From a virus: a DNA stretch of 20,131 nt. The stretch lies in IMG/VR virus record IMGVR_UViG_3300021961_005926, positions 1 to 20,131 of that record; one strand, written 5' to 3'. A program made the translations under genes and the position numbers. The notes beneath the pieces were generated by a model. It made no database searches. It saw only the letters and a program-made list of their open reading frames with translations, and was not told the origin of the DNA. Positions 944 to 16,098 of the stretch are shown in pieces (positions within the stretch are counted from its first letter, which is position 1; every line of letters begins with the position of its first letter).

Positions 944-3331
944 TTAGTATGTTCCGCCGTCTAAATCGCCGTACGTAACGTTACTACCATCAGATTGTAA
1001 AATTTTACCACTTGCACCAAGTGTTAACTTATCAAGTGTGTTTGCACCACTAGCATATAAAATATCACCAGTAGTGTATGTGCTTTGTCCTGTACCACCA
1101 TATACTTCACCAATAACAGAACCATTCCAAGTACCTTGATTAATAGTTCCTAATGTTGTGATTGATGTTTGACCAGGATAAGTTGATTTAATTTGTAATG
1201 CGTCAGATGATATTTCAATTGTACTATCATCAACAGCAACATCAAGTTGATTTCCTGTTTTTGTTAAAGCGTCACCAGCACTAATTTGACCAGCACCAGA
1301 GAATTGAGCAAATGTAATATTTGTAGTACCAAATGTTGGTGTACCGTTATGTGTAGCAACATAACCATTATCGGCATTTGTAGAACCTTGTTCAACAAAG
1401 AAGAAAGTACCACCAGTTAATTCTGAAGCTGTATCAGCATCTGGACTTCTTGTTAATACATACGCAGTTGAACCATCACCTGTTGTAGTAACTGTATAGA
1501 TACCGTTTTGTGTATTGTCAGTTTGATCTTTTAATAATACTCTATCACCTTGACTTAAAGTAACACCGTCAATTGCAATAGCACCATTTGAACCAGCAGT
1601 AATTGTTCCTGCACCGTTATCATAAGTACCAGAAACTGTAGAAGTTGTAGCAACTCTAACACTATCTTTTACATCTAATCCATTTGCAACACTATCAACG
1701 TATGCTTTTGTAGCAGCGTCTTGGTCTGAAGTTGGATCACTAACGTTTGTAATTCTACTGTTGTTAACATCAACTGAACCAGAACCTTTTGGATTTAATA
1801 CTAGGTCAATGTTAGTATCACTACCTGTTGTAGCAATCTCTACACCATCACCAGTAGCTGCGTTACTAACTTGTAATTCATTAACAGCACTTGCAGTTGT
1901 TCTTAATAGAATTAACTCGTTACCATTTGCGTCAGCAAGATAACCAGCGTCAGCAAATTTAGGTGCTGTAAGTGTTTTATTTGATAGTGTTTCTGTTCCT
2001 GCTAATGTAGCAAAAGAACCATCAGACAATGCACTATTAAATTCAGCAATAGTACCTGTTAAAGTACCTTCAGATAAATCTAATGTTAAAGTGTTGTTTG
2101 CACTATCAATTATTTTGTTTTGTAAAGTTTGATTGCCTGTTAATGTAGCAACAGTACTGTCTATAGCTACTGTAACTGTATTACCTGTAGCAGATGTATC
2201 AATACCAGTACCACCAGCAACTGTAAATGTTTCACTATCTAAATCAATAGCGATTGTTCCTGAATCTGTTGTTACATCTAAATCTTGTGCTGTTACTTGT
2301 GAGTCAACATAAGCTTTAATTGCTTTAGCAGAAGCAAGTGTATCATCACTTGCAGAAACAGAACTTAAATCCGTATCAACAACACCAGCAGCAAAATCAG
2401 CAACTTCAATATTAGATATAGAGTTACCAGTTCCATTTGCGTCAAATGTTTTATTTGTTAAAGTATGTGTTGATGAAGCTGTTAGTACGTCAGCGTGTGT
2501 GCTGATTGTAATTGTATCACCTGAAACTGAAGTATCAATGTTTGTACCACCAGAAATAGTTAATGTGTCATTTAATAAATCAACACCATCATCTGTGCCT
2601 GAGTCAGCAGCTAAATTTAATGTTGTAGAAATAGTTGCTGTACCAGCCGCTGTTAAACGACCTTGTTGGTCAACTGTAAATGTTGGAATTTCAGTTGAAG
2701 AACCATAACTACCTGGAGTTACAGCAGTATCATCTAAGTCTATTGTAACTTCGTTATCTGTAATAGATGTAGTAATTCCTGTATCACCAGTAAACGTTAA
2801 AGTTTGACCAGTAGTAAATGTGTCACTACCACTATCACCAGCAATTGTAAATGAACCTGATGGAATAGCAGCAAAACTTAAATTACCAGAACCGTCAACT
2901 GTTAAGAATTGACCATTTGAGTAAGTACCTGGAAGAGTATAAGTAACGTCTGAAGCTAATGAGTTGGGAGATTTAAGAGCTACAAAGTTTGCACCGTTAT
3001 TAGTACCTTCGTTTAATTTTATTGTACCACCTGTAGTAGCATTATTACCAATAAACAATTCATCAATTGCTTTATTAGAGTCTACTATTAAACCAGAAGA
3101 CGCAGTTAACGTTCCTGGTGTGTGGTCTAAAAGTTGTGTGTAATATCTTCCACCAATTTCAATTGCTGAATTTGATGTTGATGTTGGATCACCAATGAAG
3201 AGCCTATACCCATTACCACCAGCACCATTATCGGTTGCCGAAGTATCATAGACATAAGCTAGTTCCCCTTGGTTAAGACCGCTGGGTGCATTTGCACCAG
3301 TGGTTCGTTTAATTTTGATTATTGTTGCCAT
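944..3331 (-). CDS. Large phage tail-fibre-like protein
   Basis: 795 residues, very rich in Gly, Thr, Ser and Asp and poor in Lys and Cys, as in fibrous beta-structured phage proteins. Residues 1-60 form the Mtd-like N-terminal domain (MATIIKIKRTTG, GELAYVYDT, RLFIGD). The middle carries degenerate repeats of the TLTNKTF / TLQNKII / TLSNKTLTAPKF type (near 289, 402 and 448) and paired beta strands such as GDTITIS and GNTVTVAI. Residues 525-680 form a block widely shared among phage fibres: AATKAYVDS near 540, QGDRVLLKDQTDNTQNGIYTV near 594, then the TASELTGGTFFFVEQG stretch. The C-terminus has YGGTGQSTYTTGDILYA and ends DLDGGTY. The start has AAGGGAGAG 8 nt upstream. It probably forms part of the host-recognition fibre; whether it is the tip or a connector is unknown. 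Confidence 0.88.
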   Translation of the reverse strand: MATIIKIKRTTGANAPSGLNQGELAYVYDTSATDNGAGGNGYRLFIGDPTSTSNSAIEIGGRYYTQLLDHTPGTLTASSGLIVDSNKAIDELFIGNNATTGGTIKLNEGTNNGANFVALKSPNSLASDVTYTLPGTYSNGQFLTVDGSGNLSFAAIPSGSFTIAGDSGSDTFTTGQTLTFTGDTGITTSITDNEVTIDLDDTAVTPGSYGSSTEIPTFTVDQQGRLTAAGTATISTTLNLAADSGTDDGVDLLNDTLTISGGTNIDTSVSGDTITISTHADVLTASSTHTLTNKTFDANGTGNSISNIEVADFAAGVVDTDLSSVSASDDTLASAKAIKAYVDSQVTAQDLDVTTDSGTIAIDLDSETFTVAGGTGIDTSATGNTVTVAIDSTVATLTGNQTLQNKIIDSANNTLTLDLSEGTLTGTIAEFNSALSDGSFATLAGTETLSNKTLTAPKFADAGYLADANGNELILLRTTASAVNELQVSNAATGDGVEIATTGSDTNIDLVLNPKGSGSVDVNNSRITNVSDPTSDQDAATKAYVDSVANGLDVKDSVRVATTSTVSGTYDNGAGTITAGSNGAIAIDGVTLSQGDRVLLKDQTDNTQNGIYTVTTTGDGSTAYVLTRSPDADTASELTGGTFFFVEQGSTNADNGYVATHNGTPTFGTTNITFAQFSGAGQISAGDALTKTGNQLDVAVDDSTIEISSDALQIKSTYPGQTSITTLGTINQGTWNGSVIGEVYGGTGQSTYTTGDILYASGANTLDKLTLGASGKILQSDGSNVTYGDLDGGTY

Positions 3332-3911: not shown

Positions 3912-4247
3912 TTATACGTCTGGTTTAACTGTAATTAAACCTTCAATTATTCTTGTTACGGTACTATCACTTGCTGTTATATCTAAATCATAAACATAAC
4001 GAGCTGGTGCGTCTAAAGCTGCAGTTTGAGCTGCAGTTAAAGAAAGTGTTATTACACCTGTTGTTCTATCGGCGTCAAAAGTTGTTGTAATAGTGGTTCT
4101 TGTTCTTGTTGAAGCATAACCTAAGGCCATCTTTGCACTTGCTGTATATCCAGTCAAATCTAAAGGATTTCCATCACTACCTCTAACGGTAACTGCTGAC
4201 GAAAATGACGTTCCTTGATCTATTACATAATTTGCTACTGCTGCCAT
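3912..4247 (-). CDS. Virion-associated beta-sandwich-like protein
   Basis: 111 residues: MAAVANYVIDQGTSFSSAVT, then DGNPLDLTGYTASAKMA and D-R-T-T-G-V-I-T-L-S-L, ending with RYVYDLDITASDSTVTRIIE and GLITVKPDV. The layout (strand, 'GNPLDLTGYT', a later 'ARYVYDLDI', a terminal 'G-x-I-T-V-P' strand) matches small beta-sandwich proteins of phage tails and baseplates, similar to the BppU N-terminal type. No enzymatic motif is seen. It is the first gene of the minus-strand block; its ATG at 4247 lies exactly 5 nt downstream of a TATAAATA late promoter and lacks a Shine-Dalgarno site, unlike the genes that follow. A minor virion protein is likely. Confidence 0.75.
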   Translation of the reverse strand: MAAVANYVIDQGTSFSSAVTVRGSDGNPLDLTGYTASAKMALGYASTRTRTTITTTFDADRTTGVITLSLTAAQTAALDAPARYVYDLDITASDSTVTRIIEGLITVKPDV

Positions 4248-4269: not shown

Positions 4270-4297
4270 TTGACTTTTTTTTAAAAAGTGATATTAT
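4270..4297 (+). promoter_or_regulatory. Sigma70-like promoter for the receptor gene
   Basis: TTGACT (4270-4275), 16-bp spacer, TATTAT (4292-4297). The ATG of the receptor gene is at 4303, only 5 nt after the -10 box, so the predicted start of transcription is at about the A of ATG. The spacer is a T/A run. This host-type promoter points away from the late promoter at 4253-4260 within a 55-bp gap. Confidence 0.6.
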
Positions 4298-4302
4298 ATA
4301 GT

Positions 4303-5913
4303 ATGCGTAAAATTTTAATAATTTTAACATTTTTATTTAGTAATATATTATTTGCAGCTGAAAACGACTGTAAATGGACCAACGAAACTCCTTGTGTTAT
4401 TATATCTAAATCAAACATAACAAATTCTAATAAAATTGGTGATAAAATTACACCGAGTATTTCTATAACAAAAAAGCAAATAGAAAAATACAATCTTATA
4501 GATTTAGCAAAAACTTTAAATTTTATTCAGAGCTTAGAAGTATCTCAATCAGGTCCTACAGGACAACAAGGATCAGTTTTTTTTAGAGGCACTAATTCAA
4601 ATCACGTTTTAGTTTTATTAAACGGTATACCAATAAATGATTATTCTACACCAACAGGTGCATTTGATATTGGGCAAGATTTTATGTTTAATGTTCAACA
4701 GATAGATGTTTATAAAGGTTCATCTGGTGCTCATTGGGGCGCTGACGCTGTGGGAGGTGCAATTAATTTTAGAACAACTATTGATTATGAAAAAAAATTA
4801 AATATTTCAGGAAATCATAATGATAAAACAATTAGTGGAAATTATTATACTAATATAAATGACTTTGATATATCTTTATCAGCAGGACAACATCAATCAA
4901 AAAGTATATCAGCACTATCTGAAGCAAATGAAAAAGACGGAACAAAAAATAAATCACTTTCTATTAATGCAAGTAAATGGTATGACTTATTACATTGGAG
5001 AACAAGTTTTTTTACAAGAAATACATTTACTGATTTAGATGGACATAATGTACTTGTACAAAATGATAAATGGTCTGATAATACTTTTTACGCTTTTCAA
5101 ACAGGACTAGATTATAAAAATAGCAGTTTAACTTTACATACACACCAATACGATAGAAACTATGATGACAATTATTACAAAAGTAAAAACTATACACTAA
5201 AGGCTACACAACAATATGAAAACTATGGTTTTGGATTTGATTATAAACACAACGAATCATTTAGTAGCCAACATCACAATTTAGGATATTTTTTTAATTT
5301 ATCATACGATATATTTTCTTATCATCATAGATTTGATGAAGAACACGAAACCTATAAGTTAGGATTTTTCAAAGAGATACAAGACGGGTTAAGTATAAGT
5401 GGAAGTACATCTACAAGTTATAAAGATAAAACTACTTGGACAGCTATAGAATATGGTGAAACACAAGAATTAACTTTAACTAAAAATAATTTTTCAACAA
5501 CACTTTTTAAAAATGATATAGGCAATTTAAATACAGATGGTATTGAATTTGCTTATAATCTAAATGATATTAAATTTTTTGCAAGTCATCTTAACAGTAA
5601 AACAAACGATACGGTAACATTAAGACGTCCTAATTGGTCACTAGGATTTATTCATAATTATGATTTTAAAAACAACTTTTCACTAACCACAAACTACAAA
5701 TACAAAGGTGAACATTTAGATGTACATAATTCTAATTGGTCAACAATATCAATGCCTGAAACACATTTACTAGATTTAAATATTGGTTATGATTATTATG
5801 GAATAAAATTTGGTGTAAGTATTACAAATCTTTTAAATGAAAATTATGAGTCACCTCACGGATTTAACCAAGAAGGTAGAAAACTAACTTTAGGATTTAA
5901 CAAATCTTTTTAA
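4303..5913 (+). CDS. TonB-dependent outer-membrane receptor (BtuB/siderophore-receptor type)
   Basis: 536 residues. Residues 1-18 are a Sec signal peptide (MRKILIILTFLFSNILFA). A plug domain follows (about 40-150) with QGSVFFRGTNSNHVLVLLNG and GSSGAHWGADAVGGAINFRT, the conserved plug motifs of TonB-dependent receptors. The remainder is alternating polar/aromatic segments of a beta-barrel, and the chain ends in a C-terminal Phe (LTLGFNKSF), the usual outer-membrane barrel signature. A possible TonB box is the PCVIISKS region near 29-36. Such receptors import metal chelates, cobalamin or other large substrates. It appears intact, though short for the family (BtuB is about 610). The 5' end is set at ATG 4303 because the signal peptide begins there; the in-frame GTG at 4288 would spoil it and overlap the promoter. 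The substrate cannot be deduced. Its stop overlaps the stop of the convergent gene. Confidence 0.88.
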   Translation: MRKILIILTFLFSNILFAAENDCKWTNETPCVIISKSNITNSNKIGDKITPSISITKKQIEKYNLIDLAKTLNFIQSLEVSQSGPTGQQGSVFFRGTNSNHVLVLLNGIPINDYSTPTGAFDIGQDFMFNVQQIDVYKGSSGAHWGADAVGGAINFRTTIDYEKKLNISGNHNDKTISGNYYTNINDFDISLSAGQHQSKSISALSEANEKDGTKNKSLSINASKWYDLLHWRTSFFTRNTFTDLDGHNVLVQNDKWSDNTFYAFQTGLDYKNSSLTLHTHQYDRNYDDNYYKSKNYTLKATQQYENYGFGFDYKHNESFSSQHHNLGYFFNLSYDIFSYHHRFDEEHETYKLGFFKEIQDGLSISGSTSTSYKDKTTWTAIEYGETQELTLTKNNFSTTLFKNDIGNLNTDGIEFAYNLNDIKFFASHLNSKTNDTVTLRRPNWSLGFIHNYDFKNNFSLTTNYKYKGEHLDVHNSNWSTISMPETHLLDLNIGYDYYGIKFGVSITNLLNENYESPHGFNQEGRKLTLGFNKSF

Positions 5914-7163
5914 CTTTGAACAGCTATGTTATTATGTTTGTTTAGTATATCTAAATCTTGCTGATATTGTTTTACTTTATCTAAGGCGTGATGTTGAAAT
6001 TGATATCCTAATTCTTGTCCTAGTTTTAACACTTTCATAAATCTATTAAATCTTATTTCAAAGTCAGAATTTTCATTTTTCCAATGATAACCAAATTCAG
6101 AATTAAACAAATCTCTATGTTCAAAATCTAAAGGTGTGTTTTGAAATGTTATCATTATGTGGTGTGACACAAATATATTATGAGCGTATTTTTTATATTT
6201 TTTTAATAGGGTCAAAGTTTCTTCAAAGTCTTTTTCAGTTTCAGTAGGATAACCACAAATAAGTAAAAACTTCATTCTAATATTTCTTTCACCTATATTT
6301 GTTACAAAGTATTCAATATCATCATTACTAAATTTCTTTTTCATATGATTTCGTACTTGTTCACTTCCAGATTCAATACCTATATCTAATCCTACACAAC
6401 CTGAGTTTGCTAAATTATCAAAATCTTGCTGAGTAAATGTTTTTTTATCTCTTATAATAAACTGTGCGTCCCAATTTATTTTTTTAGGTCTTTTTGCTAA
6501 CTCGTGGCATAAATCTCTAAAATGTTTCATTGATCCATTAATTAATGAATCAGAAAAATTAATCTTTTTTAAACCTGTTTGTTCAGAAACGTGATGTAAA
6601 TCGTCAGCTATTTTTTTACCAGTCTTCCATCTATACTTAGGCCATATACTCATCACATCACAAAAAGTACACTTACGAACACAACCTCTACTACCAGATA
6701 TAACTGCTCTATCATATTTGTGTTGATGTATTGTATCTGAATAATCAGGTGGTGGCAAACTTTCTATATCTTCCATTTGTACAGGATCTCTACCATTAAT
6801 ACCAGGAAAGTCTAAATCACCCTCTAAAAATGCTTTAAGAGCGTGTTCTTCACCTCTTATAAAATGTTTTCTTGGCCAATTCTTATCAACACCAGAACCT
6901 CCAAAAACAACATTTTCATATGGTTCTGCAAGTTTAAGAGCGTCATCTTTTTGTAAAAAAGAAAATACAGATATACCTAACCATTTAAATTTATATTTGG
7001 CAATTTCTTTGTGTATGTTTTCTAAAGTATCTAATTGATTTCCATCTATAACTTTAACTTTATATCCTAAAGGTTCTAAGTATCCTTTTATAAAAGCAGG
7101 ACCTGGTACAGGCTTACCTTTATCTAGTCCTGGTAATGATGTGATCACTAAATCATAAATCAT
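5910..7163 (-). CDS. Radical SAM protein with N-terminal cobalamin-binding-like domain (class B type)
   Basis: 417 residues. Residues 1-140 resemble the Rossmann-like B12-binding domain seen in class B radical SAM enzymes (GPAFIKGYLEPLGYKVKVID near 21-40, WLGISVFSF near 61, VVFGGSG near 85), but the DxHxxG cobalamin-ligand motif is not evident. The radical SAM core starts with SRGCVRKCTFCDV: Cys161, Cys165 and Cys168 (CX3CX2C) would hold the 4Fe-4S cluster. Further core motifs are NFSDSLING and GLDIGIESGSEQV. Members methylate or otherwise modify unactivated carbons; the substrate here is unknown. Its ATG overlaps the stop of the upstream oxygenase gene (ATGA), so the two are co-translated. 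Its stop shares the four bases TTAA with the stop of the receptor gene. The family occurs in marine myoviruses as auxiliary genes. Confidence 0.85.
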   Translation of the reverse strand: MIYDLVITSLPGLDKGKPVPGPAFIKGYLEPLGYKVKVIDGNQLDTLENIHKEIAKYKFKWLGISVFSFLQKDDALKLAEPYENVVFGGSGVDKNWPRKHFIRGEEHALKAFLEGDLDFPGINGRDPVQMEDIESLPPPDYSDTIHQHKYDRAVISGSRGCVRKCTFCDVMSIWPKYRWKTGKKIADDLHHVSEQTGLKKINFSDSLINGSMKHFRDLCHELAKRPKKINWDAQFIIRDKKTFTQQDFDNLANSGCVGLDIGIESGSEQVRNHMKKKFSNDDIEYFVTNIGERNIRMKFLLICGYPTETEKDFEETLTLLKKYKKYAHNIFVSHHIMITFQNTPLDFEHRDLFNSEFGYHWKNENSDFEIRFNRFMKVLKLGQELGYQFQHHALDKVKQYQQDLDILNKHNNIAVQS

Positions 7164-7603
7164 CTAAATGCGCCTACTATATGAATCCTATCTATTTTTG
7201 AACAATTTAAAGCTGTATGATTTTTTGTCGTATCAATTACATATGCCTCACCTGTTGCTGGAATGTGTATTCGTTCATTATCAATTAATAAAAAACAATG
7301 TGGGTGTGTTATAATTGGAATATGTAATCGTTTAGTTTTATCAGCGTGCCAAAGATAACAAGTTTTTGGTTTCATTTTCATTATTCTTGTTCTTACCAAA
7401 TTATGTTCTAAGATTATACTATTGATATAGGGTATATTAAAAAGTGGAACATCATAGGTATGTTCAACATCATCAATGTCATAACCTTTGTCTGAGCCTT
7501 CCTCAGGATTCATATCTTTTGAATAACCTTGTAGATATAATTGTTTGTTATAACTTGGAAGTGTATTCAACTCTTTTTTTATTAACTCTAAATCATATAT
7601 CAT
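7160..7603 (-). CDS. 2OG-Fe(II) oxygenase, aspartyl/asparaginyl beta-hydroxylase-like
   Basis: 147 residues. The C-terminal half shows the AspH-type double-stranded beta-helix: TCYLWHADKTKRLHIPIITH (81-100) with iron ligands His86-x-Asp88, then the conserved RLHIPI strand, GEAYVID near 118-124, His129 in KNHTALN as the distal ligand, and Arg139 (DRIHIV) ten residues later as the likely 2-oxoglutarate-binding Arg. Spacing and order match AspH-like oxygenases, which hydroxylate Asp/Asn side chains or small molecules. The start is ATG 7603; an upstream in-frame extension would add a hydrophobic stretch encoded by the promoter region. A TATAAATA late promoter lies exactly 5 nt upstream, with no Shine-Dalgarno site. 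It is followed by the radical SAM gene with ATGA overlap, suggesting that both act on the same substrate or pathway. Confidence 0.8.
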   Translation of the reverse strand: MIYDLELIKKELNTLPSYNKQLYLQGYSKDMNPEEGSDKGYDIDDVEHTYDVPLFNIPYINSIILEHNLVRTRIMKMKPKTCYLWHADKTKRLHIPIITHPHCFLLIDNERIHIPATGEAYVIDTTKNHTALNCSKIDRIHIVGAFR

Positions 7604-7608
7604 AACAA

Positions 7609-7616
7609 TATTTATA
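7609..7616 (-). promoter_or_regulatory. T4-type late promoter abutting the oxygenase start
   Basis: Exact TATAAATA on the minus strand, then TTGTT, then ATG (7603). Spacing is the same 5 nt as at 4253-4260, again predicting a leaderless or nearly leaderless late mRNA. Confidence 0.6.
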
Positions 7617-7617
7617 G

Positions 7618-7625
7618 CATAAATA
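7618..7625 (+). promoter_or_regulatory. Late-promoter-like octamer for the nitroreductase-like gene
   Basis: CATAAATA, one mismatch from the TATAAATA late consensus, followed by ATTAT and ATG (7631): once more 5 nt. It is separated by a single base from the divergent octamer at 7609-7616, giving an imperfect inverted repeat (TATTTATA-G-CATAAATA). Confidence 0.45.
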
Positions 7626-7630
7626 ATTAT

Positions 7631-8287
7631 ATGACTATAGAAGATATATATAAAAAAAGAAAACAATGTAGATTATTTGATACCAAAAGAATACCAGACA
7701 AATCTCTTATTAAAGAAATATTAGAAAAAACATTTAAACTTGTGGCGTCAAAACAAAATTTTATGCCATACAAAGTTCACGTTATTGGTCCAGATCGTCC
7801 AGATGTTAAAGAACAATTTTGGAATATAGTAAAACAAAGACCAGGTGGAGAAAAAAATGATAATATACCTACTGCTCCATATCAATTACTTTTTACACAA
7901 AGACTTTTAGAATCAACCACATATACAAAAAGAAAATTGGATGCAGGTGAGCCTATAGGCTTAATGAATAAAAATAAATGGAAAAATAAACCATTAACTA
8001 GAGCTGTAGCTTTAGAGGTAGGTATGTTTGCTAAAATATTAACTGGATTGTGTATAGAAAACAATATACAGGTAGCGTACAATCTATGTTTTCCTTATAT
8101 TAAAGATACAGACAAATCTGGAGTAGAATATTATCAATATTATAAAAAATTTGGTTTTTTAGAAGATCCTGATCCTGTATTTTCAATGTTATTAGGTTAT
8201 AAAGATCCTAATATAACAGATGAATATAGAAAAGACGGAAAAGATGTTATAAAACCTAAAGTTGATACAATTATAAAGTGGGTGTGA
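7631..8287 (+). CDS. Nitroreductase-family (FMN) protein
   Basis: 218 residues. The N-terminus (IYKKRKQCRLFDTKRIPDKS, then LIKEILEKTFKLVASKQNFM and PYKVHVI) follows the nitroreductase pattern: paired basic residues with R-x-F for FMN phosphate binding, a first helix, then S/N-x-x-P-x-x-x-x-V. Near residues 124-150, ALEVGMFAKILTGLCIENNI followed by Q-V-A-Y matches the family's central helix and 'GL' motif. Members use FMN and NAD(P)H to reduce nitro, quinone or other electron acceptors; some act as desaturases in tailoring pathways. The insert around 55-110 has no motif I recognise. The start lies 5 nt after a late-like octamer and has no Shine-Dalgarno site. Assignment is at family level only, with no substrate. 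Confidence 0.65.
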   Translation: MTIEDIYKKRKQCRLFDTKRIPDKSLIKEILEKTFKLVASKQNFMPYKVHVIGPDRPDVKEQFWNIVKQRPGGEKNDNIPTAPYQLLFTQRLLESTTYTKRKLDAGEPIGLMNKNKWKNKPLTRAVALEVGMFAKILTGLCIENNIQVAYNLCFPYIKDTDKSGVEYYQYYKKFGFLEDPDPVFSMLLGYKDPNITDEYRKDGKDVIKPKVDTIIKWV

Positions 8288-8316
8288 TTGACATTTTAAC
8301 AAAAAAATGTTATAAT
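8288..8316 (+). promoter_or_regulatory. Perfect consensus sigma70 promoter for the long plus-strand operon
   Basis: TTGACA (8288-8293), 17-bp spacer, TATAAT (8311-8316): full match to both consensus hexamers with optimal spacing. The -35 box begins at the base after the nitroreductase stop codon. Transcription would start near 8323, giving a leader of about 43 nt before ATG 8366. No other convincing promoter is seen up to the right edge, so this one probably drives some 12 kb of genes. A host-type promoter suggests early expression. Confidence 0.8.
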
Positions 8317-8365
8317 AAGTGATGAATAAATAAAAAATATTAATTATAAAATGAAAGATTAAATT

Positions 8366-9295
8366 ATGAAAAGTGTAAATGTCGTTTGTACAAGTAAGCC
8401 TGGTGATGGATTACTTAGATATAGTTATGAACATAGTAGTTATCTTCGTTCACTAGGCCTTCCCTCAAAATTAACAATCATAACTCATCCTGGTTTTAAG
8501 GACCTCGACTATGTAAATTGCATACGGGAACAGTATATTCATTGTGATCAAGTTTATTTCAATGAAGTTGACTTAAACCCAAATTCAGTAACTTTAATTA
8601 TGGGTAGAAGTATGTTAACAATACCATATTTAAAGATTATGGAAGATAAAAAACTTAATAGGACTTTTCCAAATTATACAAAACAACAGCTGTATGTATT
8701 AAGTTTAGTATTTGGAAATAATCTAATATCAGTTTATTCTGAAAATCATCCTAAAGACTATCCATTAGCACTAAATTATTTTAATCCTAGAAAAGTTGTT
8801 GACCTTTGCGACTATGATGTTTATCCTAATGGTGTAGGAATACAATTTGAAAAAATAATAAATTTTGATATATACAAATCATTTAAACACGATATTAAAT
8901 ATCAATATTTATTTTTAGGAACAAATAAAGAATATTACAAAACTATTGAAGACTTTATGAGTAATAACTATCTATTATATCAATCTCACGGTATAATAAC
9001 TTATACTAAAGAAAAATATATTAATCCTAAATTTAATAATCTTAATGTTCCAGTTGCAAATTTATTAGGCTCATTTGAAACATATTGTTATATAAAATCA
9101 ACTTTTGATCCTGCACCTAGATTAATGCAAGAATGTAGATATTTTGGTAAAAAAGTTTTATATTTAAGAGATCCAAATATTATAGATGGTGGAAGTGTTT
9201 ATTGGAAAAGACCTGTACCTACTAGAGCAAGTTATTTTAAAAATTTTGAAGTGTTGCTTGATGTATTAGAAAATGAATATAAATTTATTTTATAA
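8366..9295 (+). CDS. Putative GT-B-like glycosyltransferase
   Basis: 309 residues, soluble, with no signal peptide. The N-terminal part (MKSVNVVCTSKPGDGLLRYS, then EHSSYLRSLGLPSKLTIITH) looks like the first Rossmann half of a GT-B enzyme with a glycine-rich loop near the N-terminus. The C-terminal part has STFDPAPRLMQECRYFGKKV followed by LYLRD (about 250-275), comparable to the 'E-x-x-P-R-x-x-x-E-x-x-x-x-G-x-x-V' nucleotide-sugar-binding region of GT-B enzymes. It is the first gene of the plus-strand operon behind the consensus promoter. The ribosome site is weak (AAAGA about 7 nt upstream). The family call is tentative, since catalytic residues cannot be fixed by eye; two GT-A-like genes at the far end of the operon support a glycan-related context. 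Confidence 0.5.
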   Translation: MKSVNVVCTSKPGDGLLRYSYEHSSYLRSLGLPSKLTIITHPGFKDLDYVNCIREQYIHCDQVYFNEVDLNPNSVTLIMGRSMLTIPYLKIMEDKKLNRTFPNYTKQQLYVLSLVFGNNLISVYSENHPKDYPLALNYFNPRKVVDLCDYDVYPNGVGIQFEKIINFDIYKSFKHDIKYQYLFLGTNKEYYKTIEDFMSNNYLLYQSHGIITYTKEKYINPKFNNLNVPVANLLGSFETYCYIKSTFDPAPRLMQECRYFGKKVLYLRDPNIIDGGSVYWKRPVPTRASYFKNFEVLLDVLENEYKFIL

Positions 9296-9298
9296 AAA

Positions 9299-9991
9299 AT
9301 GAAAAAAATATTATTAGTAAGTGGTTGTAGTTGGGGTGATCCAAATTTTACTTCTGTTTTTCATCCAGATATGTCTTGTGAATGGCTTAAATGGCCTGAA
9401 TTACTAGCAAAAAAATTAGATATGGAATGTCTAAATCTTTGTAGAAGTGGTGCTGGACAAGAATATATTTACAGTTCAATTTCAGATAAACTTCAAATAC
9501 TTGAACCTAGTAAAATTGGATATGCTATTGCTGCTTGGTCAAGTGCTCCTAGACGTGATTTCAATATATTTAATACTTGGAGAAATGATAGGATTGATTC
9601 CAAAGGAGATTTAACATATTGGATACAAAGAAGTTTTAGATTTCATTATGCTTTTCAATCATTAATGGAATTGAAAAAAATACCATATTTACACTTTCAA
9701 ATGATTAGTTTACATAGAGCATATTTAAACGAATTAAGACTGTTAGATCCTAAGAATACAAATAGACTTGATAATGAACATCAAAAAGTTTTGTACACAA
9801 TAAAAAATAGTCATTATTATAAAAATTTTAATAATAAATTTATTGGTTGGCCTTTAGATGAAGATATGAATGGATTTGATATAGGATCAGGAATACTAGG
9901 TGAACAACATAGAATATCTGAACAAGATAGACATCCAAATGCAAAAGGACAAGAAATAATAGCAGATTACATTTATGACAGGTTGGGATAG
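9299..9991 (+). CDS. SGNH-hydrolase-like protein, copy 1
   Basis: 230 residues. Block I is LLVSGCSWGD (catalytic Ser likely Ser11 in GCS). NLCRSGAGQEYIYSS is the block II region with its conserved Gly, and YAIAAWSS replaces the usual block III. Near the C-terminus DRHPNAKGQEIIADYIY carries the His (212) of block V with Asp at 210, i.e. DxH rather than the usual DxxH. SGNH proteins are esterases, or acyltransferases acting on glycans and small molecules. It is clearly paralogous to the protein at 14824-15591: both have HPxxxCxWxKWPExLAKKLxM near 20-42 and R-R-D-F near 90. The ATG is 3 nt after the previous stop. Its 3' end overlaps the aminotransferase gene by 17 nt. Confidence 0.7.
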   Translation: MKKILLVSGCSWGDPNFTSVFHPDMSCEWLKWPELLAKKLDMECLNLCRSGAGQEYIYSSISDKLQILEPSKIGYAIAAWSSAPRRDFNIFNTWRNDRIDSKGDLTYWIQRSFRFHYAFQSLMELKKIPYLHFQMISLHRAYLNELRLLDPKNTNRLDNEHQKVLYTIKNSHYYKNFNNKFIGWPLDEDMNGFDIGSGILGEQHRISEQDRHPNAKGQEIIADYIYDRLG

Positions 9992-11249
9992 AGAATACTT
10001 AGAACACAAAGAAGAATACTTAAATCTTTTTGATAAAGTAATGCAAAAAGAACAAGAATCTAATATAGAATTTTTAGAAGATAAACTTACATCATATACA
10101 GGTAGAAAATATGCTGTTGCTTGTGCTAGTGCAACCGATGCTCTACATTTTGCTTTAAGAAGTTTAAACATCAAATCAGGTGATGAAGTTTTAACAACTA
10201 ATTTCTCTTGGATTTCTACTGCCTCTTGTATCTCTATGATTGGTGCAACACCTGTATTTTGTGAGATAGATTTATCATCTTATCATATGACTTTAGAAAG
10301 TATTAAAAAAATGTATTCACCTAAAGTTAAAGCAATTGTTTATCCTCATCTATTTGGTAATATGTCTGATACAAAAGAGATATTAGATTTTTGTAAAGAA
10401 AAGAATATTGCATTTATAGAAGACGCAGCTCAATCCTTAGGTGCAAGTCTAAACGGTGTTAAGGCGGGTTCAATAGGAGACATTAGTGCATTAAGTTTTA
10501 ATGCAAACAAAGTTATTGCTGGTATAGCTGGTGGAGGCGCTGTTCTTACAGATGACAAAGATAAAGCAGAGATATTTAAGAAATTAAGAAGACACGGCAA
10601 TAATGAAATATTAGGTTATAATTCTAAAATGTTATTAATGAACGCTGAATTTATTAATTTTAGATTAAATAAAATGAAAGAATGGCAGGTAAAAAGACAG
10701 GAAATTGCAAAACAATATGATGAACAATTAAAAGACTACGTTGTTGTACAACCTACATCAAATGGCTTAGATCATAATTATCACAAATATGTTATAAGAT
10801 TGCCTAATAAAGAAATAAGAAATAATTTAAAAAAAATATTAGACGCAAAAATACATTATGATAAACCTTTATCTGAAAATAAAATGTACAAAAACATTGA
10901 ACATAGATCAGATAAAATGTATATAAGTAAAATTGTAAGTGATACAATATTAACTTTACCTATTCATCCATATATGACTAAACAAGAGATTAATAAAATT
11001 ACAAATACTATTATAATTACACTGGAACATAAAAAAAATCATTTTATTAACGATATGAAAAAAATATTAGGTGATAATATATTTGACGAAAATTTATTAA
11101 ATGAAACAAATGAACCTATATATGATTATATTGTAGAAAAAATTTATCAAATGCCAGAATACATTGAAGATGAACCATTCAAAAATAAAACAAAATTAAA
11201 AATTGCATTTAATAAATTTTATACAAAAAATTATGGAAAAAACTTATAA
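9975..11249 (+). CDS. DegT/DnrJ/EryC1/StrS-family PLP aminotransferase
   Basis: 424 residues. Fold type I sugar-aminotransferase motifs are clear: YAVACASATDALHFAL (46-61) for the phosphate pocket, GDEVLTTNFSWISTASCISM (69-88), IAFIEDAAQSLGAS with Asp150 contacting the pyridine N, and ISALSFNANKVIAGIAGGGA with Lys179 as the Schiff-base lysine, then RRHGNN. Members usually transaminate nucleotide-linked keto sugars, making amino sugars for O-antigen or antibiotics; some act on other carbonyl substrates. The core ends near 352. The last about 70 residues (from HKKNHFINDMKKIL) are an extra lysine-rich extension not usual for the family. ATG 9975 overlaps the SGNH gene by 17 nt, and the normal family N-terminus needs this start. 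The next gene overlaps its 3' end by 17 nt. Confidence 0.88.
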   Translation: MTGWDREYLEHKEEYLNLFDKVMQKEQESNIEFLEDKLTSYTGRKYAVACASATDALHFALRSLNIKSGDEVLTTNFSWISTASCISMIGATPVFCEIDLSSYHMTLESIKKMYSPKVKAIVYPHLFGNMSDTKEILDFCKEKNIAFIEDAAQSLGASLNGVKAGSIGDISALSFNANKVIAGIAGGGAVLTDDKDKAEIFKKLRRHGNNEILGYNSKMLLMNAEFINFRLNKMKEWQVKRQEIAKQYDEQLKDYVVVQPTSNGLDHNYHKYVIRLPNKEIRNNLKKILDAKIHYDKPLSENKMYKNIEHRSDKMYISKIVSDTILTLPIHPYMTKQEINKITNTIIITLEHKKNHFINDMKKILGDNIFDENLLNETNEPIYDYIVEKIYQMPEYIEDEPFKNKTKLKIAFNKFYTKNYGKNL

Positions 11250-11628
11250 AAAAGAAAATTGGTTTTTTTCTATGAAAAAAACTTATAGAATTGAACCAAA
11301 GTGTTTTAAAGATCAATCAATGGCAATAACAAATCAAGGCTATCTCATACCTTGTTGTTTTTGTGATCATCCAAAAATAATGAAAAGTGATCGTATGAAA
11401 GACTTACTTAAAGTTAGTAATATAAATGACTACGACAAATTAGAAGATATTGGAAAAACAGTTGAATGGAAAAACTTTTATAATGATTTAAAAAACAATG
11501 TACCTCCTGTAGAAGCTTGTGTAGAAATTTGTTCCATAAAACAAGATGGATCAAAAGTTAAAGAACTTAGAACAGATACATTTATTGATACAAAGAGTAA
11601 AACTACAATATCAAAGAGAATAAATTAA
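11233..11628 (+). CDS. Free-standing SPASM-like cysteine protein, copy 1
   Basis: 131 residues from ATG 11233, which overlaps the aminotransferase stop; ATG 11272 is an alternative. It has no radical SAM core but shows a SPASM-type auxiliary-cluster pattern: IEPKCF (Cys24), AITNQGYLIPCCFCDHP (Cys41, 42, 44) with G-x4-C, and ACVEICS (C-x3-C) near 96-100. SPASM domains bind extra 4Fe-4S clusters and normally sit C-terminal to a radical SAM core in one chain. Here the next gene is a radical SAM core without such a domain, joined by a TAATG junction, so the two may work as a split enzyme. Copies 2 and 3 (13699-14142, 15652-16092) share the layout and the phrase KDLLKVSNI / KKLLKVSKI. The cluster-binding role is inference. 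Confidence 0.6.
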   Translation: MEKTYKKENWFFSMKKTYRIEPKCFKDQSMAITNQGYLIPCCFCDHPKIMKSDRMKDLLKVSNINDYDKLEDIGKTVEWKNFYNDLKNNVPPVEACVEICSIKQDGSKVKELRTDTFIDTKSKTTISKRIN

Positions 11629-12245
11629 TGTCGCTTCAACATTTTACAAATCGGCCAGGAGTTAATTTTGATTGTACATTTAGATGTCCATTAATGTGTC
11701 CTAAATGTCAAAGACAGCGTTTTTATACTCATTTGAACAAAAAAGTTCCTGGTGATGACGTAAGTATTCAAAACTTTAAAAAAATTATAAACTTTTTTAA
11801 AAACGTACATTTTGAAGGACAATATTCAGATTCGGTACATCATCCAAAATTTATAGAGATGTTGAAAATGTGCAAAGTTAATAATAATGAGGTTCGTGTA
11901 CAACATTCAAGTGCTGCTAAACCTATAAAATGGTATAAAGAAGCTTTTGAGGCAAATAAAAAAGTAGAATGGAGATTTTCTATGGACGGTTTACCAGAAA
12001 GTAGTCATCAATATAGAATAAACCAAAATGGTAAAAAGTTATTTGAAATTATGAAAATGGCTGTTAATATATTAGAAAAAAAACCTTTTTGGCAATTTAT
12101 AGTTTTTAAATATAATGAAAATGAAATTAATGAAGCAATAGAATTAGCAGATAAAATTGGTATAAATTTTTATACGTTACAGTCTAGTAAATGGGACGGA
12201 GAAGATGATCCTTATAGACCTAGTGACAAATGGATGTTAAAATGA
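11628..12245 (+). CDS. Radical SAM core protein lacking a C-terminal SPASM domain, copy 1
   Basis: 205 residues. FDCTFRCPLMCPKCQRQRF holds the CX3CX2C motif (Cys20, Cys24, Cys27) for the SAM-bound 4Fe-4S cluster. Further core-like features are FEGQYSDSVHHPKF (about 64-77, in place of the usual GGEP), VRVQHSSAA (about 90), and EWRFSMDGLPESSHQYRINQ (about 115-134), matching the strand that reads 'S-x-D-G' in peptide-modifying radical SAM enzymes. The chain stops at EDDPYRPSDKWMLK, just where an auxiliary-cluster domain would be expected. It is paralogous to 13059-13721 (same RCPLxCPxCQRQ, VHHPKF and DGLPxxSHxYRINQNG). Its ATG overlaps the previous stop (TAATG) and its stop overlaps the next start (ATGA). 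The substrate is unknown. Confidence 0.82.
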   Translation: MSLQHFTNRPGVNFDCTFRCPLMCPKCQRQRFYTHLNKKVPGDDVSIQNFKKIINFFKNVHFEGQYSDSVHHPKFIEMLKMCKVNNNEVRVQHSSAAKPIKWYKEAFEANKKVEWRFSMDGLPESSHQYRINQNGKKLFEIMKMAVNILEKKPFWQFIVFKYNENEINEAIELADKIGINFYTLQSSKWDGEDDPYRPSDKWMLK

Positions 12246-13066
12246 AAACTTTAGAAGAAATACAAAATAATTATCTAGCAATTGACTTCTTTATGTCAAT
12301 GTCTTGTAATAAAGACTGTCATTATTGTACTAGTTATACTTTGGAAATGCGAAATCTTACAGTAGATATGAATTTTTTAAAAAAAGTTTTAACATATTTA
12401 AAAGATTATAAAGTACGAGTCTGTTTATTAGGAGGTGAGCCAGGCCTTATTAAAAATTTAAATGATGTAATAGCTGAAATTAAAAAATATCCTAATCTTG
12501 TATGTTCAGTATTATCTAACTCATTTATTCGTAAAAGATATCCTCATATACTTGAAGATAAAGAAATACTTTACGTTGAACACAATATACTAGATTGGTA
12601 TGAAGATGGTGTAAAAAAATTAGGTAATTTTGATTTTGTACCTGAAAATGACTTTAATAATTATAATGTTGTTGTACAAACACCAAATTATTTTAAGTAT
12701 AAAGACAAGTATCCTGAAATATTAAAAAAATTAGATCATAAAAACACAATGTGGAAAACTTTTAATGGTAGATCAAAAGATTTTACAGATGTTATTCAGG
12801 CAGATGAAATTGACCGTAAAATGTGTGCAGCTTTTCCTATGGTGCCTGTAATAGATTTTGAAAAAAAACATATAGTACATTGTAGTAAAAAGTTTGCTAA
12901 TAATGATGAACTTTCAAAAACATTTGAACTAACAAAAGAAAACATTGATAAAATGATGAACTTTAGATTATTTAAATATGAAAGTTATTGTAAAACTTGT
13001 ACTGAATGGGTACAACCTAAAGGACATTTTCCTTTAAGAAAATACGGAAAGATATTAAATGGTTGA
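12242..13066 (+). CDS. Radical SAM protein with C-terminal SPASM/twitch-like cysteines
   Basis: 274 residues from ATG 12242, which overlaps the previous stop as ATGA; an in-frame ATG at 12230 would add four residues. The core starts at MSMSCNKDCHYCTSY (Cys22, Cys26, Cys29, CX3CX2C) and contains VCLLGGEPGLI near 62-72, the GGEP motif that contacts SAM, followed by VCSVLSNSF. The C-terminal part keeps extra cysteines (KMCAAFPMV near 195, HIVHCSKKF near 213, YCKTCTEW near 256), so a complete radical SAM plus auxiliary-cluster architecture is present in one chain. It differs from the two short cores on either side, which lack both GGEP and this tail. The 3' end overlaps the next gene by 8 nt. The family's substrates are often peptides or sugars; none can be named here. 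Confidence 0.82.
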   Translation: MKTLEEIQNNYLAIDFFMSMSCNKDCHYCTSYTLEMRNLTVDMNFLKKVLTYLKDYKVRVCLLGGEPGLIKNLNDVIAEIKKYPNLVCSVLSNSFIRKRYPHILEDKEILYVEHNILDWYEDGVKKLGNFDFVPENDFNNYNVVVQTPNYFKYKDKYPEILKKLDHKNTMWKTFNGRSKDFTDVIQADEIDRKMCAAFPMVPVIDFEKKHIVHCSKKFANNDELSKTFELTKENIDKMMNFRLFKYESYCKTCTEWVQPKGHFPLRKYGKILNG

Positions 13067-13721
13067 TAATATAGAAAAAGAAAAAAAATTAAATACATTT
13101 TTTAACAGAAAAACAATAAACATTGATATTTCTTTTAGATGTCCATTGGAGTGTCCTAGATGTCAAAGACAAACTTATTTTAAAGATAGAGGATTAAAAG
13201 TACACGGATATGATTTATCATTAAATGAAATAGAAAAACTAAGTAAGTTTTTTACAAAATTTGTATTTTGTGGTCAACTGTCGGATCCTGTTCATCATCC
13301 TAAATTCTCAGAAATATTAAAAATATTACACAAACAAAATGTTAAATGTGAAATACATAATGCAGCTACTCAAAAATCAATGGACTACTACATTGAATGT
13401 TTTAAAGCAAATCCAAATGCTCAATGGGTTTTTGGACTAGATGGATTACCAAAAGATAGTCACAAGTATAGAATTAATCAGAATGGTGAAAAAATGTTTC
13501 AAATCATATGTGAGTCAAAAAAATATCTAAAAAACCCACCAATATGGCAATATATTGTCTTTAGTTATAATGAAAATGATATTAAAACAGCTCAAGAATT
13601 AGCTAAAGAAAACGGGATTATATTTTTATTACTACAATCATCAAGGTGGTTAAGTGATGATGATCCATATAAACCAAAAAATAAAGAACTAGCTTTAGAT
13701 GCCAAAACAGAAACCAGATAA
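13059..13721 (+). CDS. Radical SAM core protein lacking a C-terminal SPASM domain, copy 2
   Basis: 220 residues. IDISFRCPLECPRCQRQTYF carries Cys28, Cys32 and Cys35 (CX3CX2C). FCGQLSDPVHHPKFSE and WVFGLDGLPKDSHKYRINQN align with copy 1 at 11628-12245; the two are paralogues, with copy 2 carrying a longer lysine-rich N-terminus. The chain ends DDDPYKPKNKELALDAKTET, again at the expected boundary of a SPASM domain. The next gene, which starts 23 nt before this stop in the +1 frame, encodes a SPASM-like protein, so core and auxiliary-cluster domain appear as two overlapping genes. The ATG at 13059 overlaps the previous gene by 8 nt. I see no classical slippery sequence in the overlap, so a fused product is not indicated. 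Confidence 0.82.
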   Translation: MVDNIEKEKKLNTFFNRKTINIDISFRCPLECPRCQRQTYFKDRGLKVHGYDLSLNEIEKLSKFFTKFVFCGQLSDPVHHPKFSEILKILHKQNVKCEIHNAATQKSMDYYIECFKANPNAQWVFGLDGLPKDSHKYRINQNGEKMFQIICESKKYLKNPPIWQYIVFSYNENDIKTAQELAKENGIIFLLLQSSRWLSDDDPYKPKNKELALDAKTETR

Positions 13722-14142
13722 AACTTTAGAACATAAACCTTTTGAAAAAAGAGTTAGGAAACCTGTTAAAGGTAAAATACAATTAGAGCCTAAATGTATG
13801 ATTACACCTGAAGAAAAAAGACAAGAGGAAATTAAAATGGTAGCAGTTACTAATAGAGGTCATTTATTACCTTGTTGTTGGTTGGACAATCCACAGATTT
13901 TAGATCATCCGACTATGAAAAAATTATTAAAAGTGAGTAAAATAAGTGAACATAATTCAATAGAAGATATTTTAAATTCAGAACCTTGGCTTGAGTTTGC
14001 TAAAAACCTAATTGAATCTGAAAATAATGACGATAAGATTTTGTGGCCTTGTATTGAACATTGCAGAAAAAGAGAAGATAAATATAGAATAGATACCTAT
14101 TTTGATGATACAGGAAATATAGTAAATAAAATTATTAATTAA
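13699..14142 (+). CDS. Free-standing SPASM-like cysteine protein, copy 2
   Basis: 147 residues beginning MPKQKPDKTLEHKPFEKRVR. Cysteines: Cys33 in LEPKCM, Cys59-Cys60 in VTNRGHLLPCCWLD (G-x4-C), and Cys118 and Cys122 in WPCIEHCRK (C-x3-C). The layout fits an auxiliary 4Fe-4S (SPASM) domain detached from its radical SAM core. The start is supported by the identical MPKQ beginning of copy 3 (15652), which has no radical SAM gene upstream, so this is a real start and not a frameshifted tail of the preceding gene. It overlaps the radical SAM gene by 23 nt, and the PP-loop gene starts one base after its stop. Bases 13922-13976 are almost identical to 15875-15929 in copy 3. Confidence 0.65.
   Translation: MPKQKPDKTLEHKPFEKRVRKPVKGKIQLEPKCMITPEEKRQEEIKMVAVTNRGHLLPCCWLDNPQILDHPTMKKLLKVSKISEHNSIEDILNSEPWLEFAKNLIESENNDDKILWPCIEHCRKREDKYRIDTYFDDTGNIVNKIIN
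13922..13976 (+). repeat. 55-bp near-identical repeat, copy A
   Basis: Matches 15875-15929 at 54 of 55 positions by eye (the one difference is at 13959/15912). It encodes LLKVSKISEHNSIEDIL in SPASM-like copy 2. Flanking sequence in the two genes is much more diverged, including at silent positions. Confidence 0.8.
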
Positions 14143-14143
14143 T

Positions 14144-14824
14144 ATGATATATAAAAATAAATTTGGTAAAATTAAACTTCCTAAAAAATTAAATAATAAA
14201 GTTATAGGATTATCTATGTCTGGAGGAGCAGATAGTACAATACTATGTTATTTGCTTGCTAAATTTTGCCAAGATAAAATATTTAATTATGTCATACAAC
14301 CATTTAGTGCCTATGATTTAAGTGTACCAGGCGACGCTAAAAAACTTCCTGATATAATACAATATATAAGAAATAAGTTTCCAGATGTACAGATAAGATG
14401 GCCAATATCAACAGTTTTTCCAAATCCAAATTTTATACCAGTTAAAAATGAATATTTAGGCTCACTAAAAAAAATATTAACACATTATAAAGTTTACGAT
14501 ATATTCGTATCGGCAATAAGTTTAGGCCCCCCTTTAGAGGTACAAAAAACATTTGAAACTAATGATTCTAAAAATATAAAAAGATTAGAAGGATATGATT
14601 TATACAACGAACTTCTAGTTGGTAAAAACAATAAACGCACATTAAAACCATTTGTAAATATTAATAAATCATTTATAATTCAATGTTACAAAGATTTTAA
14701 AGAAGAAAAATTGCTAGAGATTACAGAGTCTTGTATTCAATTAGTAAAATGTAAACCTGGAGATAAATTTTGTTGGTGGTGTTTAGAAAAAGATTGGGCA
14801 ATAAAAAAAGTATATACAGATTAA
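14144..14824 (+). CDS. PP-loop ATP pyrophosphatase with QueC-like cysteine cluster, copy 1
   Basis: 226 residues. IGLSMSGGADSTILCYLLAK holds the PP-loop SGGxDS (26-31), which binds ATP pyrophosphate in enzymes that adenylate and then amidate or thiolate a substrate (QueC, asparagine synthetase, WbpG/PseA-type amidotransferases, tRNA thiolases). The C-terminus has ESCIQLVKCKPGDKFCWWCL with Cys197, 203, 210 and 213, a layout resembling the zinc site of QueC. It shares PPxxVQK, the (K/R)PF-x-N region and the ending C-W-x-C-x-E-K-x-W-A with the protein at 17610-18470, so the two are paralogues. No other queuosine-pathway gene is present, so 7-cyano-7-deazaguanine synthase is not claimed. It starts one base after the SPASM stop; its own stop overlaps the next ATG (TAATG). 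Confidence 0.72.
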   Translation: MIYKNKFGKIKLPKKLNNKVIGLSMSGGADSTILCYLLAKFCQDKIFNYVIQPFSAYDLSVPGDAKKLPDIIQYIRNKFPDVQIRWPISTVFPNPNFIPVKNEYLGSLKKILTHYKVYDIFVSAISLGPPLEVQKTFETNDSKNIKRLEGYDLYNELLVGKNNKRTLKPFVNINKSFIIQCYKDFKEEKLLEITESCIQLVKCKPGDKFCWWCLEKDWAIKKVYTD

Positions 14825-15591
14825 TGATTATGATTATAAACAAGTATTTGATAGTTAGTGGTTGTAGTTGGACAGATAAGAATTATCAGTCAGCTCCACA
14901 TCCCAATCTGAATTGTGATTGGCCAAAATGGCCTGAAATACTAGCAAAAAAACTAAGAATGGAATGTATAAATTTGGCTGAATCAGGACAAGGCCAAGAA
15001 TTTATATATTCATCATTATTAGATACTTTATCGTCTTTCAAACCAATTGAGATTGGATTGGTGATTGCAGCTTGGACAAAATCTTCTCGTAGAGATTTTT
15101 CTTATACCCACAAAAATAAAAAAGGTGAATGGGTTAATGATGATAGTTATATCTTAAAAAGATATAAGACTCGTTGGAATAGTTATTTATTTGATAATAA
15201 AGGAGATGATTATTATTTTTTATATAAATCGCTAAGATATCAATATAGTATTTCAAAAGTATGTGAGGCATTAAATATACCACTTAAACATTTTCAAATG
15301 TTAGAACCCTATGAAACTGCTGACTATGGACTTGCAAAAGAAAATTATAAAAATAATCCTATAAAACGAATTGGTGGCCAAGAATATTATAATACTATGT
15401 TAACTTCACACTATGGAAAATATTTAGATAATAGTCAAAATTTTATAGGATTTCCAGGACAAAAAATGTATGGAGGTCTTAATGGTAGAAATATTATATC
15501 GGATCCGAACGACTATATATCAGACGAGGATGGTCATCCAAACGAAAAAGGACACAAAAAAATAGCGGAGTTTATATATGAAAATTTATAG
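14824..15591 (+). CDS. SGNH-hydrolase-like protein, copy 2
   Basis: 255 residues from ATG 14824, which overlaps the PP-loop stop (TAATG); an upstream in-frame start at 14770 would lie inside the previous gene. YLIVSGCSWTD gives block I (Ser15), INLAESGQGQEFIYSS the block II region, and SDEDGHPNEKGHKKIAEFIY block V with His238 and Asp236 (DxH). It is paralogous to 9299-9991 along the whole length: HPNLNCDWPKWPEILAKKLR against HPDMSCEWLKWPELLAKKLD, IAAW, RRDF and LKHFQM against LHFQM. It has an extra loop (WNSYLFDNKGDDYYF) and a longer region before block V. An esterase or acyltransferase role on a glycan or small molecule is plausible, but the non-standard block V leaves activity uncertain. 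Confidence 0.7.
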   Translation: MIMIINKYLIVSGCSWTDKNYQSAPHPNLNCDWPKWPEILAKKLRMECINLAESGQGQEFIYSSLLDTLSSFKPIEIGLVIAAWTKSSRRDFSYTHKNKKGEWVNDDSYILKRYKTRWNSYLFDNKGDDYYFLYKSLRYQYSISKVCEALNIPLKHFQMLEPYETADYGLAKENYKNNPIKRIGGQEYYNTMLTSHYGKYLDNSQNFIGFPGQKMYGGLNGRNIISDPNDYISDEDGHPNEKGHKKIAEFIYENL

Positions 15592-15650
15592 TGTATCATT
15601 GCAGAAAATTTGACGATACAAAAAACATAATAAATAGAATTGTTAATTGA
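15592..15650 (+). pseudogene. Remnant 3' end of a lost SPASM-like gene copy
   Basis: Between the SGNH stop and the next SPASM-like gene lies a short stretch that, read in the frame ending at TGA 15648-15650, encodes YHCRKFDDTKNIINRIVN. This matches the end of SPASM copy 2 (EHCRK, then FDDTGNIVNKIIN) with ten residues missing between HCRK and FDD. The match in DNA continues to the T-ATG junction: TRA-T-ATG in both places. The leading TGTAT may also match 14050-14054 if 4 bases were lost. It has no start codon and no other part of the gene, so it is a relic of a further copy rather than a functional ORF. Confidence 0.75.
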
Positions 15651-15651
15651 T

Positions 15652-16092
15652 ATGCCAAAGCAAGAACGAGATAAAAGTTTAGAATATAAACCATATAAAC
15701 ATAGGGTTCGTAAACCTCTTCCAAAAGAAATAGAAATGCAACCAAAATGTATGGTTCAAAAAAATAAAGAAAAATCAATTGATACTCAACAGGCAGCAGT
15801 TACAAATAGAGGCCATCTAATTCCTTGTTGTTGGTTAGATGAACATTCAACTTTAAGGCATCCAATTATGATAGAATTATTAAAAGTGAGTAAAATAAGT
15901 GAACATAATTCGATAGAAGATATTTTAAAAACAAATGTGTGGGCTAATTTTGCTAAAAATTTAGCTGAAAATAATATGGATAAAATTTTACCTAGTTGTA
16001 TTTTTCATTGCAGAGAAAGAAATGACAAGGACAAAATAAGAAAAGAAACCTACTTCAAGGACGGAGAAGTTAAAAGTAAAAATATTGTGTAA
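15652..16092 (+). CDS. Free-standing SPASM-like cysteine protein, copy 3 (no adjacent core)
   Basis: 146 residues from ATG 15652 (MPKQERDKSLEYKPYKHRVR); a TTG at 15640 would place the start inside the relic tail. Cys33 (MQPKCM), Cys59-Cys60 (VTNRGHLIPCCWLD), and Cys116 and Cys120 (PSCIFHCRE) match copy 2 in number and spacing. Unlike copies 1 and 2 it has no radical SAM core next to it: upstream is the relic and an SGNH-like gene, downstream the carbamoyltransferase. It could serve one of the two short cores in trans, have its own role, or be left over from rearrangement. It is closest to copy 2, including a 55-bp near-identical block, so these two duplicated more recently than copy 1. Confidence 0.65.
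   Translation: MPKQERDKSLEYKPYKHRVRKPLPKEIEMQPKCMVQKNKEKSIDTQQAAVTNRGHLIPCCWLDEHSTLRHPIMIELLKVSKISEHNSIEDILKTNVWANFAKNLAENNMDKILPSCIFHCRERNDKDKIRKETYFKDGEVKSKNIV
15875..15929 (+). repeat. 55-bp near-identical repeat, copy B
   Basis: Partner of 13922-13976 within SPASM-like copy 3, about 1.95 kb apart in direct orientation. One mismatch by eye (15912). Confidence 0.8.
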
Positions 16093-16098
16093 ACTAAC

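Follow-up and report, generated by a model that had tools for sequence, protein, structure and literature searches.

A BtuB-like TonB-dependent receptor gene of T4-like phages, preceded in many relatives by an adenosylcobalamin riboswitch

Why should a virus carry, close to its tail genes, an intact gene for a TonB-dependent outer-membrane receptor, and what would such a receptor bring into the infected cell? The question is raised by a complete IMG/VR record, a linear fragment of 20,131 bp hereafter called the window. The receptor gene lies on the strand opposite to both its neighbours (Table 1), with its ATG 55 bp from a divergent tail gene and its 3′ end overlapping that of a radical SAM gene by 4 bp, end to end. 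Surface seawater contains little cobalamin, for which many bacteria rely on an outside supply. We consider it likely that the gene encodes a phage receptor for cobalamin or another corrinoid, that is, a functional analogue of BtuB.

Table 1. Features of the window around and beyond the receptor gene
Feature	Position	Strand	Basis or remark
Tail-fibre/virion structural protein	944-3331	-	phrog_30390 7e-67; phrog_8745 tail fiber 1e-24
Tail-fibre-assembly-like protein, divergent neighbour	3912-4247	-	phrog_1084 4.6e-26; phrog_3304 1.6e-15 ('L-shaped tail fiber protein assembly')
Sigma-70-like promoter, TTGACT-16-TATTAT, TG before -10	4270-4297	+	10/12 consensus matches
BtuB-like TonB-dependent receptor	4303-5913	+	536 aa (ATG); alternative GTG start at 4288 gives 541 aa
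Putative signal peptide, MRKILIILTFLFSNILFA	4303-4356	+	Read by eye from the sequence
Plug domain	4459-4761	+	PF07715, residues 58-158 of the 541-aa frame
Radical SAM protein, B12-binding-like N-terminus (about 6894-7097), convergent with the receptor	5910-7163	-	PF04055 8e-17; PF02310 0.0076, sub-threshold
Asp/Arg beta-hydroxylase-like protein	7160-7666	-	PF05118 5e-7
Cargo block	7631-19949	+	Pfam matches; order common to phage Mosig (homologues 34-86%)

The initial annotation had described an intact receptor gene, and this description holds. The reading frame is free of internal stops from either start, the plug matches PF07715 with an E-value of 1.6e-18 (67.6 bits for a Pfam cut-off of 23.9), and the protein ends in ...GFNKSF, with a terminal Phe. 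In the family alignment a hydrophobic leader is found in all relatives, the predicted signal peptide and the C-terminal aromatic residue are kept, and the C-terminal strands are conserved. BtuB comes first by sequence, profile and fold. Indeed, it is the closest PDB relative (phmmer, E=8e-20, and 2e-26 with the family profile), the best matches being to BtuB and not to FecA, ZnuD or siderophore receptors. The plug and C-terminal strands align with those of E. coli BtuB (PDB 1NQE, 3M8B), and the segment TPCVIISKS, which falls near the BtuB sequence DTLVVTA, is a candidate TonB box. However, the window receptor is only about 24% identical to E. coli BtuB and is shorter, and the phage protein has a conserved C-x-W...P-C N-terminus and is carried by T4-like phages. 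The NCBIfam B12-receptor models match far under their cut-offs (85.4 bits against 599.7 for the TIGR01779 equivalog), and we therefore label the protein BtuB-like rather than BtuB.

The structure prediction that the initial annotation had proposed as a check gives a plausible barrel and a plug of low confidence. The AlphaFold2 model shows about 22 strands and its 12 best Foldseek matches are all BtuB, but its mean pLDDT is only 49.8 and the plug is poorly modelled. The Pfam barrel model PF00593 finds no match in the window receptor. The predicted barrel thus rests on the strand pattern and on homology. Pairwise dN/dS values of 0.03-0.16 indicate that the protein is maintained by purifying selection. 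The family phrog_5687, listed as 'unknown function', matches both phage receptors examined over the plug and the start of the barrel (E-values of 5e-16 and 5e-13); TonB-dependent receptor would be a possible annotation for it.

The phage structural setting reported by the initial annotation is also confirmed. Two IMG/VR scans gave 40 and then 55 receptor loci, largely overlapping, with copies 66-98% identical; the presence of the receptor in more than 50 other viral loci excludes chance or mis-assembly. No sign was seen that receptor and tail genes come from different molecules, the arrangement recurring in many independent contigs. The T4 major capsid protein gp23 (E about 1e-150) is encoded on three receptor-bearing contigs (G001, G002 and G011), two of them among the longest (165.7 and 128.7 kb) and the third, G011, of 52.6 kb. 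G011 combines riboswitch, receptor and gp23, and 43 of its 57 ORFs have homologues in Pelagibacter phage Mosig, the closest isolate by gp23 (80%), followed by Melnitz (71%) and HTVC008M (69%). The window itself has no gp23, and its T4-like (Kyanoviridae-like) placement rests on synteny. It corresponds to Mosig 51.5-69.9 kb, with the tail-fibre genes on one side and a radical SAM/aminotransferase/carbamoyltransferase block on the other, mostly collinear. In particular, the divergent tail-fibre-assembly gene has a 65% Mosig homologue (54133-54474), while the larger tail protein, which matches tail-fibre and decoration families, is 93% identical to G001 91856-94243. The cargo block encodes nitroreductase-like, radical SAM/SPASM, SGNH-like, DegT aminotransferase, carbamoyltransferase, methyltransferase and glycosyltransferase proteins. 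Short radical SAM and SPASM-like proteins are repeated in it and several SGNH-like ones occur, the counterpart being Mosig 61.0-69.9 kb. Between the two blocks Mosig holds different cargo, with no homologue of the receptor or of its convergent radical SAM gene.

Across the relatives the receptor occupies at least five contexts: that of the window; an operon with the permease TctA; beside a ribonucleotide reductase gene (L013); beside ThyX (L026, L040, L048, L158); and another one (L045, L046, L056).

What does the receptor carry? The initial annotation had regarded a cobalamin link as thinkable, and this link is now well supported by riboswitches lying directly upstream of homologous receptor genes. 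Bacterial btuB genes are often under the control of a cobalamin riboswitch. In many phage relatives, the Rfam model AdoCbl-II (RF01689, gathering cut-off 36.5) matches just before the receptor with 69.6-82.9 bits over model positions 1-81, i.e. as a full-length aptamer (L013, with 77 bits; L008, L010, L015, L018, L019, L023, L026; L016, L029, L030, L037, L040), the L018 aptamer aligning to the model in full. When the whole records behind 26 loci were searched, 12 of them showed exactly one RF01689 match each, and comparison of coordinates placed all 12 upstream of the receptor and none elsewhere in those records. A profile built from the aptamers found them in 26 of the first 40 loci. The aptamers are of two sequence types and end about 21-24 nt before the receptor ORF, or about 82 nt in one subgroup. 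In the first type a purine-rich AAGGAG stands between aptamer and start codon, a position that would fit translational control by the riboswitch.

A scan of 2.9 million viral contigs, run independently with the aptamer core pattern alone, led to the same kind of gene. It returned 30 contigs, in 29 of which the next gene encodes a BtuB-like TonB-dependent receptor, the 30th ending before any such gene could appear. Two of these receptors are divergent: one (L158, on a 172-kb contig) is 42% identical to the window receptor, and the other (L154) is 32% identical to the second receptor family described below, in the order DUF6580-riboswitch-receptor. RF01689 is uncommon in control genomes, with matches in 4 of 14 and only one above the cut-off. 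At the window receptor itself RF01689 gives no match, either at the gathering threshold or at E<=10. This copy is 73-78% identical to riboswitch-bearing receptors, and its cobalamin function is therefore assigned by homology.

The initial annotation had placed the receptor beside late tail genes. Late expression of the receptor is not supported, because its gene runs opposite in strand to the tail genes, with a -35/-10-like promoter in front of it. In the window this promoter-like site ends 5 nt before the ATG, implying a leaderless transcript or a very short leader; the match alone is statistically weak (20 such sites found for 15.6 expected), the support coming from its conservation in relatives. 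There, most of the cases examined show the same promoter type 7-17 nt ahead of the aptamer; where the aptamer is missing, it abuts the ATG. The loci L008 (3276-3380) and L014 (1280-1317) have near-identical promoters, respectively with and without the riboswitch, and receptors 95% identical, which means that the aptamer has been cleanly gained or lost. Transcription from a host-type promoter, plausibly early in infection, would agree with this organization.

Could the receptor import some other scarce compound, such as an organic acid or a metal or siderophore complex, its resemblance to BtuB being one of fold only? We find this unlikely. The idea draws on the abundance of conserved His in the family alignment and on one subgroup (L012, L049-L053, L055, L057) in which the receptor is directly followed by TctA (PF01970, 1.1e-57; 1e-54 for another TctA among the relatives) and then by a putatively secreted TctC-like protein. 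The TctA family is known for carboxylates, which would suggest a different substrate in that subgroup. Signal peptide and operon position make the TctC-like protein a candidate binding protein, but it has no Pfam match and no PDB relative, and its structure model has a pLDDT of 35. No TctB small membrane subunit was seen in the operon, where the small membrane protein is DUF6580, and ORF comparison found no TctA on the window contig. However, in many phages the homologous receptor is the one gene with a cobalamin riboswitch in front of it, and the best matches remain with BtuB.

The slot of the TctA operon is occupied in other phages by a second BtuB-like receptor (family 2), with a DUF6580 membrane protein (2e-17) in front. 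This receptor matches TIGR01779 at 1.6e-51 and PF00593 at 3e-22. It is about 587 aa long, goes with DUF6580, and lies in a TctA-TctC or a window-type slot (L077:3882-8078, L080-L090, L144-L147). In the last four of these loci, DUF6580 and family 2 stand between the tail-fibre-assembly genes and, contig permitting, the window-type radical SAM gene. The two families have homologous profiles (hhalign 99.9%), with sequences only about 31% identical. That one BtuB-like receptor has taken the place of another at two sites points to a single common function.

A second alternative, which we judge improbable, is that the receptor alters the surface of the infected cell, excluding superinfection or acting as a decoy for BtuB-dependent phages or colicins. 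Phages and colicins indeed commonly use BtuB as their receptor, the gene occupies a variable cargo site adjoining tail-fibre genes, and its promoter-like site is compatible with early expression. Nevertheless, neither decoy nor exclusion accounts for a cobalamin riboswitch, and co-operonic permease-type genes misfit a decoy. The protein is also conserved throughout (mean column identity of 84% in the family alignment), without diversifying loops and with the low dN/dS given above.

That the gene is cargo with hardly any effect, or bacterial DNA misfiled as viral, is suggested by the metagenomic nature of IMG/VR assemblies and by BtuB matches in INPHARED that are partly bacterial records labelled phage, but is largely refuted and very improbable given gp23 on receptor contigs, the recurrent Mosig synteny, the more than 50 loci and purifying selection. 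Two scans of bacterial genome contigs, which detect exact conserved peptides only, found no close bacterial copy, and a plasmid search returned only weak matches in the plug region. The receptor was not found in Mosig, Melnitz or HTVC008M, nor in any INPHARED isolate, where the matches are weak and are headed by bacterial records entered under phage. Three such records (AGRM01000004, AFYI01000005 and OR851069) appear to be bacterial DNA with a BtuB gene, and mislead searches for phage receptors.

If the receptor takes up a corrinoid, what would the phage use it for? Feeding B12-type radical SAM enzymes or host B12-dependent enzymes seems the most plausible use. The initial annotation had pointed to a B12-domain-like radical SAM gene nearby, and the hint proves weakly right: the B12-binding domain PF02310 is matched in the convergent gene and, at 1.4e-4, in its 89%-identical L003 homologue, but both matches stay under the Pfam cut-off. 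The best NCBIfam models for this gene are mostly B12-binding radical SAM families. Such genes recur near the receptor: G001 has two radical SAM genes with B12-binding domains above the cut-off, and in L040 a B12-type radical SAM gene (7.6e-5) stands a few genes upstream of the receptor. A B12-dependent class II ribonucleotide reductase was considered as a sink and rejected. The L013 reductase, with its ATP cone and the architecture of class I, creates no need for B12; its Mosig homologue is annotated as an alpha subunit and lies near a beta subunit.

The phage contigs yielded no TonB, ExbD or FecCD-type permease, so that the receptor must depend on the host system. A corrinoid receptor of this kind would be produced by the infected cell under a host-type promoter and inserted into the host outer membrane, where the TonB-ExbB-ExbD complex of the host could drive scarce corrinoid into the periplasm. 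Onward transport might be ensured by host importers or, in some relatives, by the phage-encoded DUF6580 protein or TctA with its TctC-like partner. Where the AdoCbl-II riboswitch is present, translation would drop once intracellular adenosylcobalamin is sufficient; in the window lineage, which lacks it, the receptor would be expressed free of that control. The imported cofactor would probably supply B12-dependent steps during infection, including those of the B12-type radical SAM enzymes that the phage itself encodes next to the receptor.

Viral uptake genes are of a known kind; it is the regulator and the location that are unusual here. The cyanophage pstS gene (PMC6359870) is likewise a host-type uptake gene in a lytic marine phage, which could raise nutrient supply during infection. 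It differs in encoding a periplasmic protein for phosphate, as opposed to an outer-membrane receptor for a cofactor with, in many relatives, a cis riboswitch. Receptor-like genes have been noted in other marine phages. Excerpts of the respective articles describe a SusC-like TonB-dependent receptor in the megaphage Mar_Mega_1, proposed for carbohydrate (PMC9723777), and one TonB-dependent receptor near the structural genes of Polarivirus skadi, read as indicating the host receptor (PMC10504331). Both are single annotations, with neither riboswitch nor uptake operon mentioned in those excerpts, and skadi is HTVC010P-type rather than T4-like. Replication of the marine cobaviruses (PMC6775973) is also tied to cobalamin, but through a cobalamin-dependent class II ribonucleotide reductase, these phages carrying no uptake receptor.

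The pelagimyophages and Melnitz-like phages (PMC7029224, PMC9004378) are the closest isolates both by gp23 and by synteny. They infect SAR11 and OM43; in H5P1, the OM43 host, the one cobalamin riboswitch present stands in front of btuB (PMC9004378). A glutamine riboswitch occurs in both Melnitz and Mosig (PMC7029224, PMC9004378), and a 2020 survey reported no riboswitches in pelagimyophages (PMC7029224). To judge from the literature searched, neither the cobalamin riboswitch nor the receptor had therefore been described in this group. In the open-licence literature of PubMed Central, which our search covered, no report of a riboswitch-controlled phage receptor was found.

If the corrinoid reading is true, a lytic phage with its own, often riboswitch-gated, B12 receptor would be a case of viruses managing a host cofactor and shifting marine B12 uptake. 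The vague idea of viral control of vitamin flux would then become testable with one receptor and one RNA. A bolder extension, which we put forward as speculative and rather doubtful, is a modular corrinoid cassette in which an adenosylcobalamin riboswitch goes with one out of two or more BtuB-like receptors that can stand in for each other, and in which an inner-membrane part built from DUF6580 and/or TctA plus a TctC-like protein replaces BtuCDF. With it the phage would sense and correct the B12 status of the cell, partly for its own radical SAM enzymes, and DUF6580 and/or TctA would be unrecognized corrinoid importers. Should the corrinoid reading be right, it would also point to what DUF6580 and an unusual lineage of TctA do.

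Receptor-bearing phages seem to collect tricarboxylate-type transporters: in G003 (5250-7725 and 36279-38456) and G006 (31378-33651), further TctA genes of distant kinship occur away from the receptor, and next to each of them is a TctC-like gene with a signal peptide. The 170.8-kb contig of L089 has DUF6580 with TctA-TctC, the receptor being absent from that slot. A tctA domain match has also been recorded in SUP05 viral contigs (PMC4164917). Finally, just downstream of the riboswitch-receptor and ThyX genes of L026, the gene at 12352-13305 is a 62% homologue of a putative phosphate ABC transporter gene of Mosig, and the three together possibly form a nutrient-uptake cluster.
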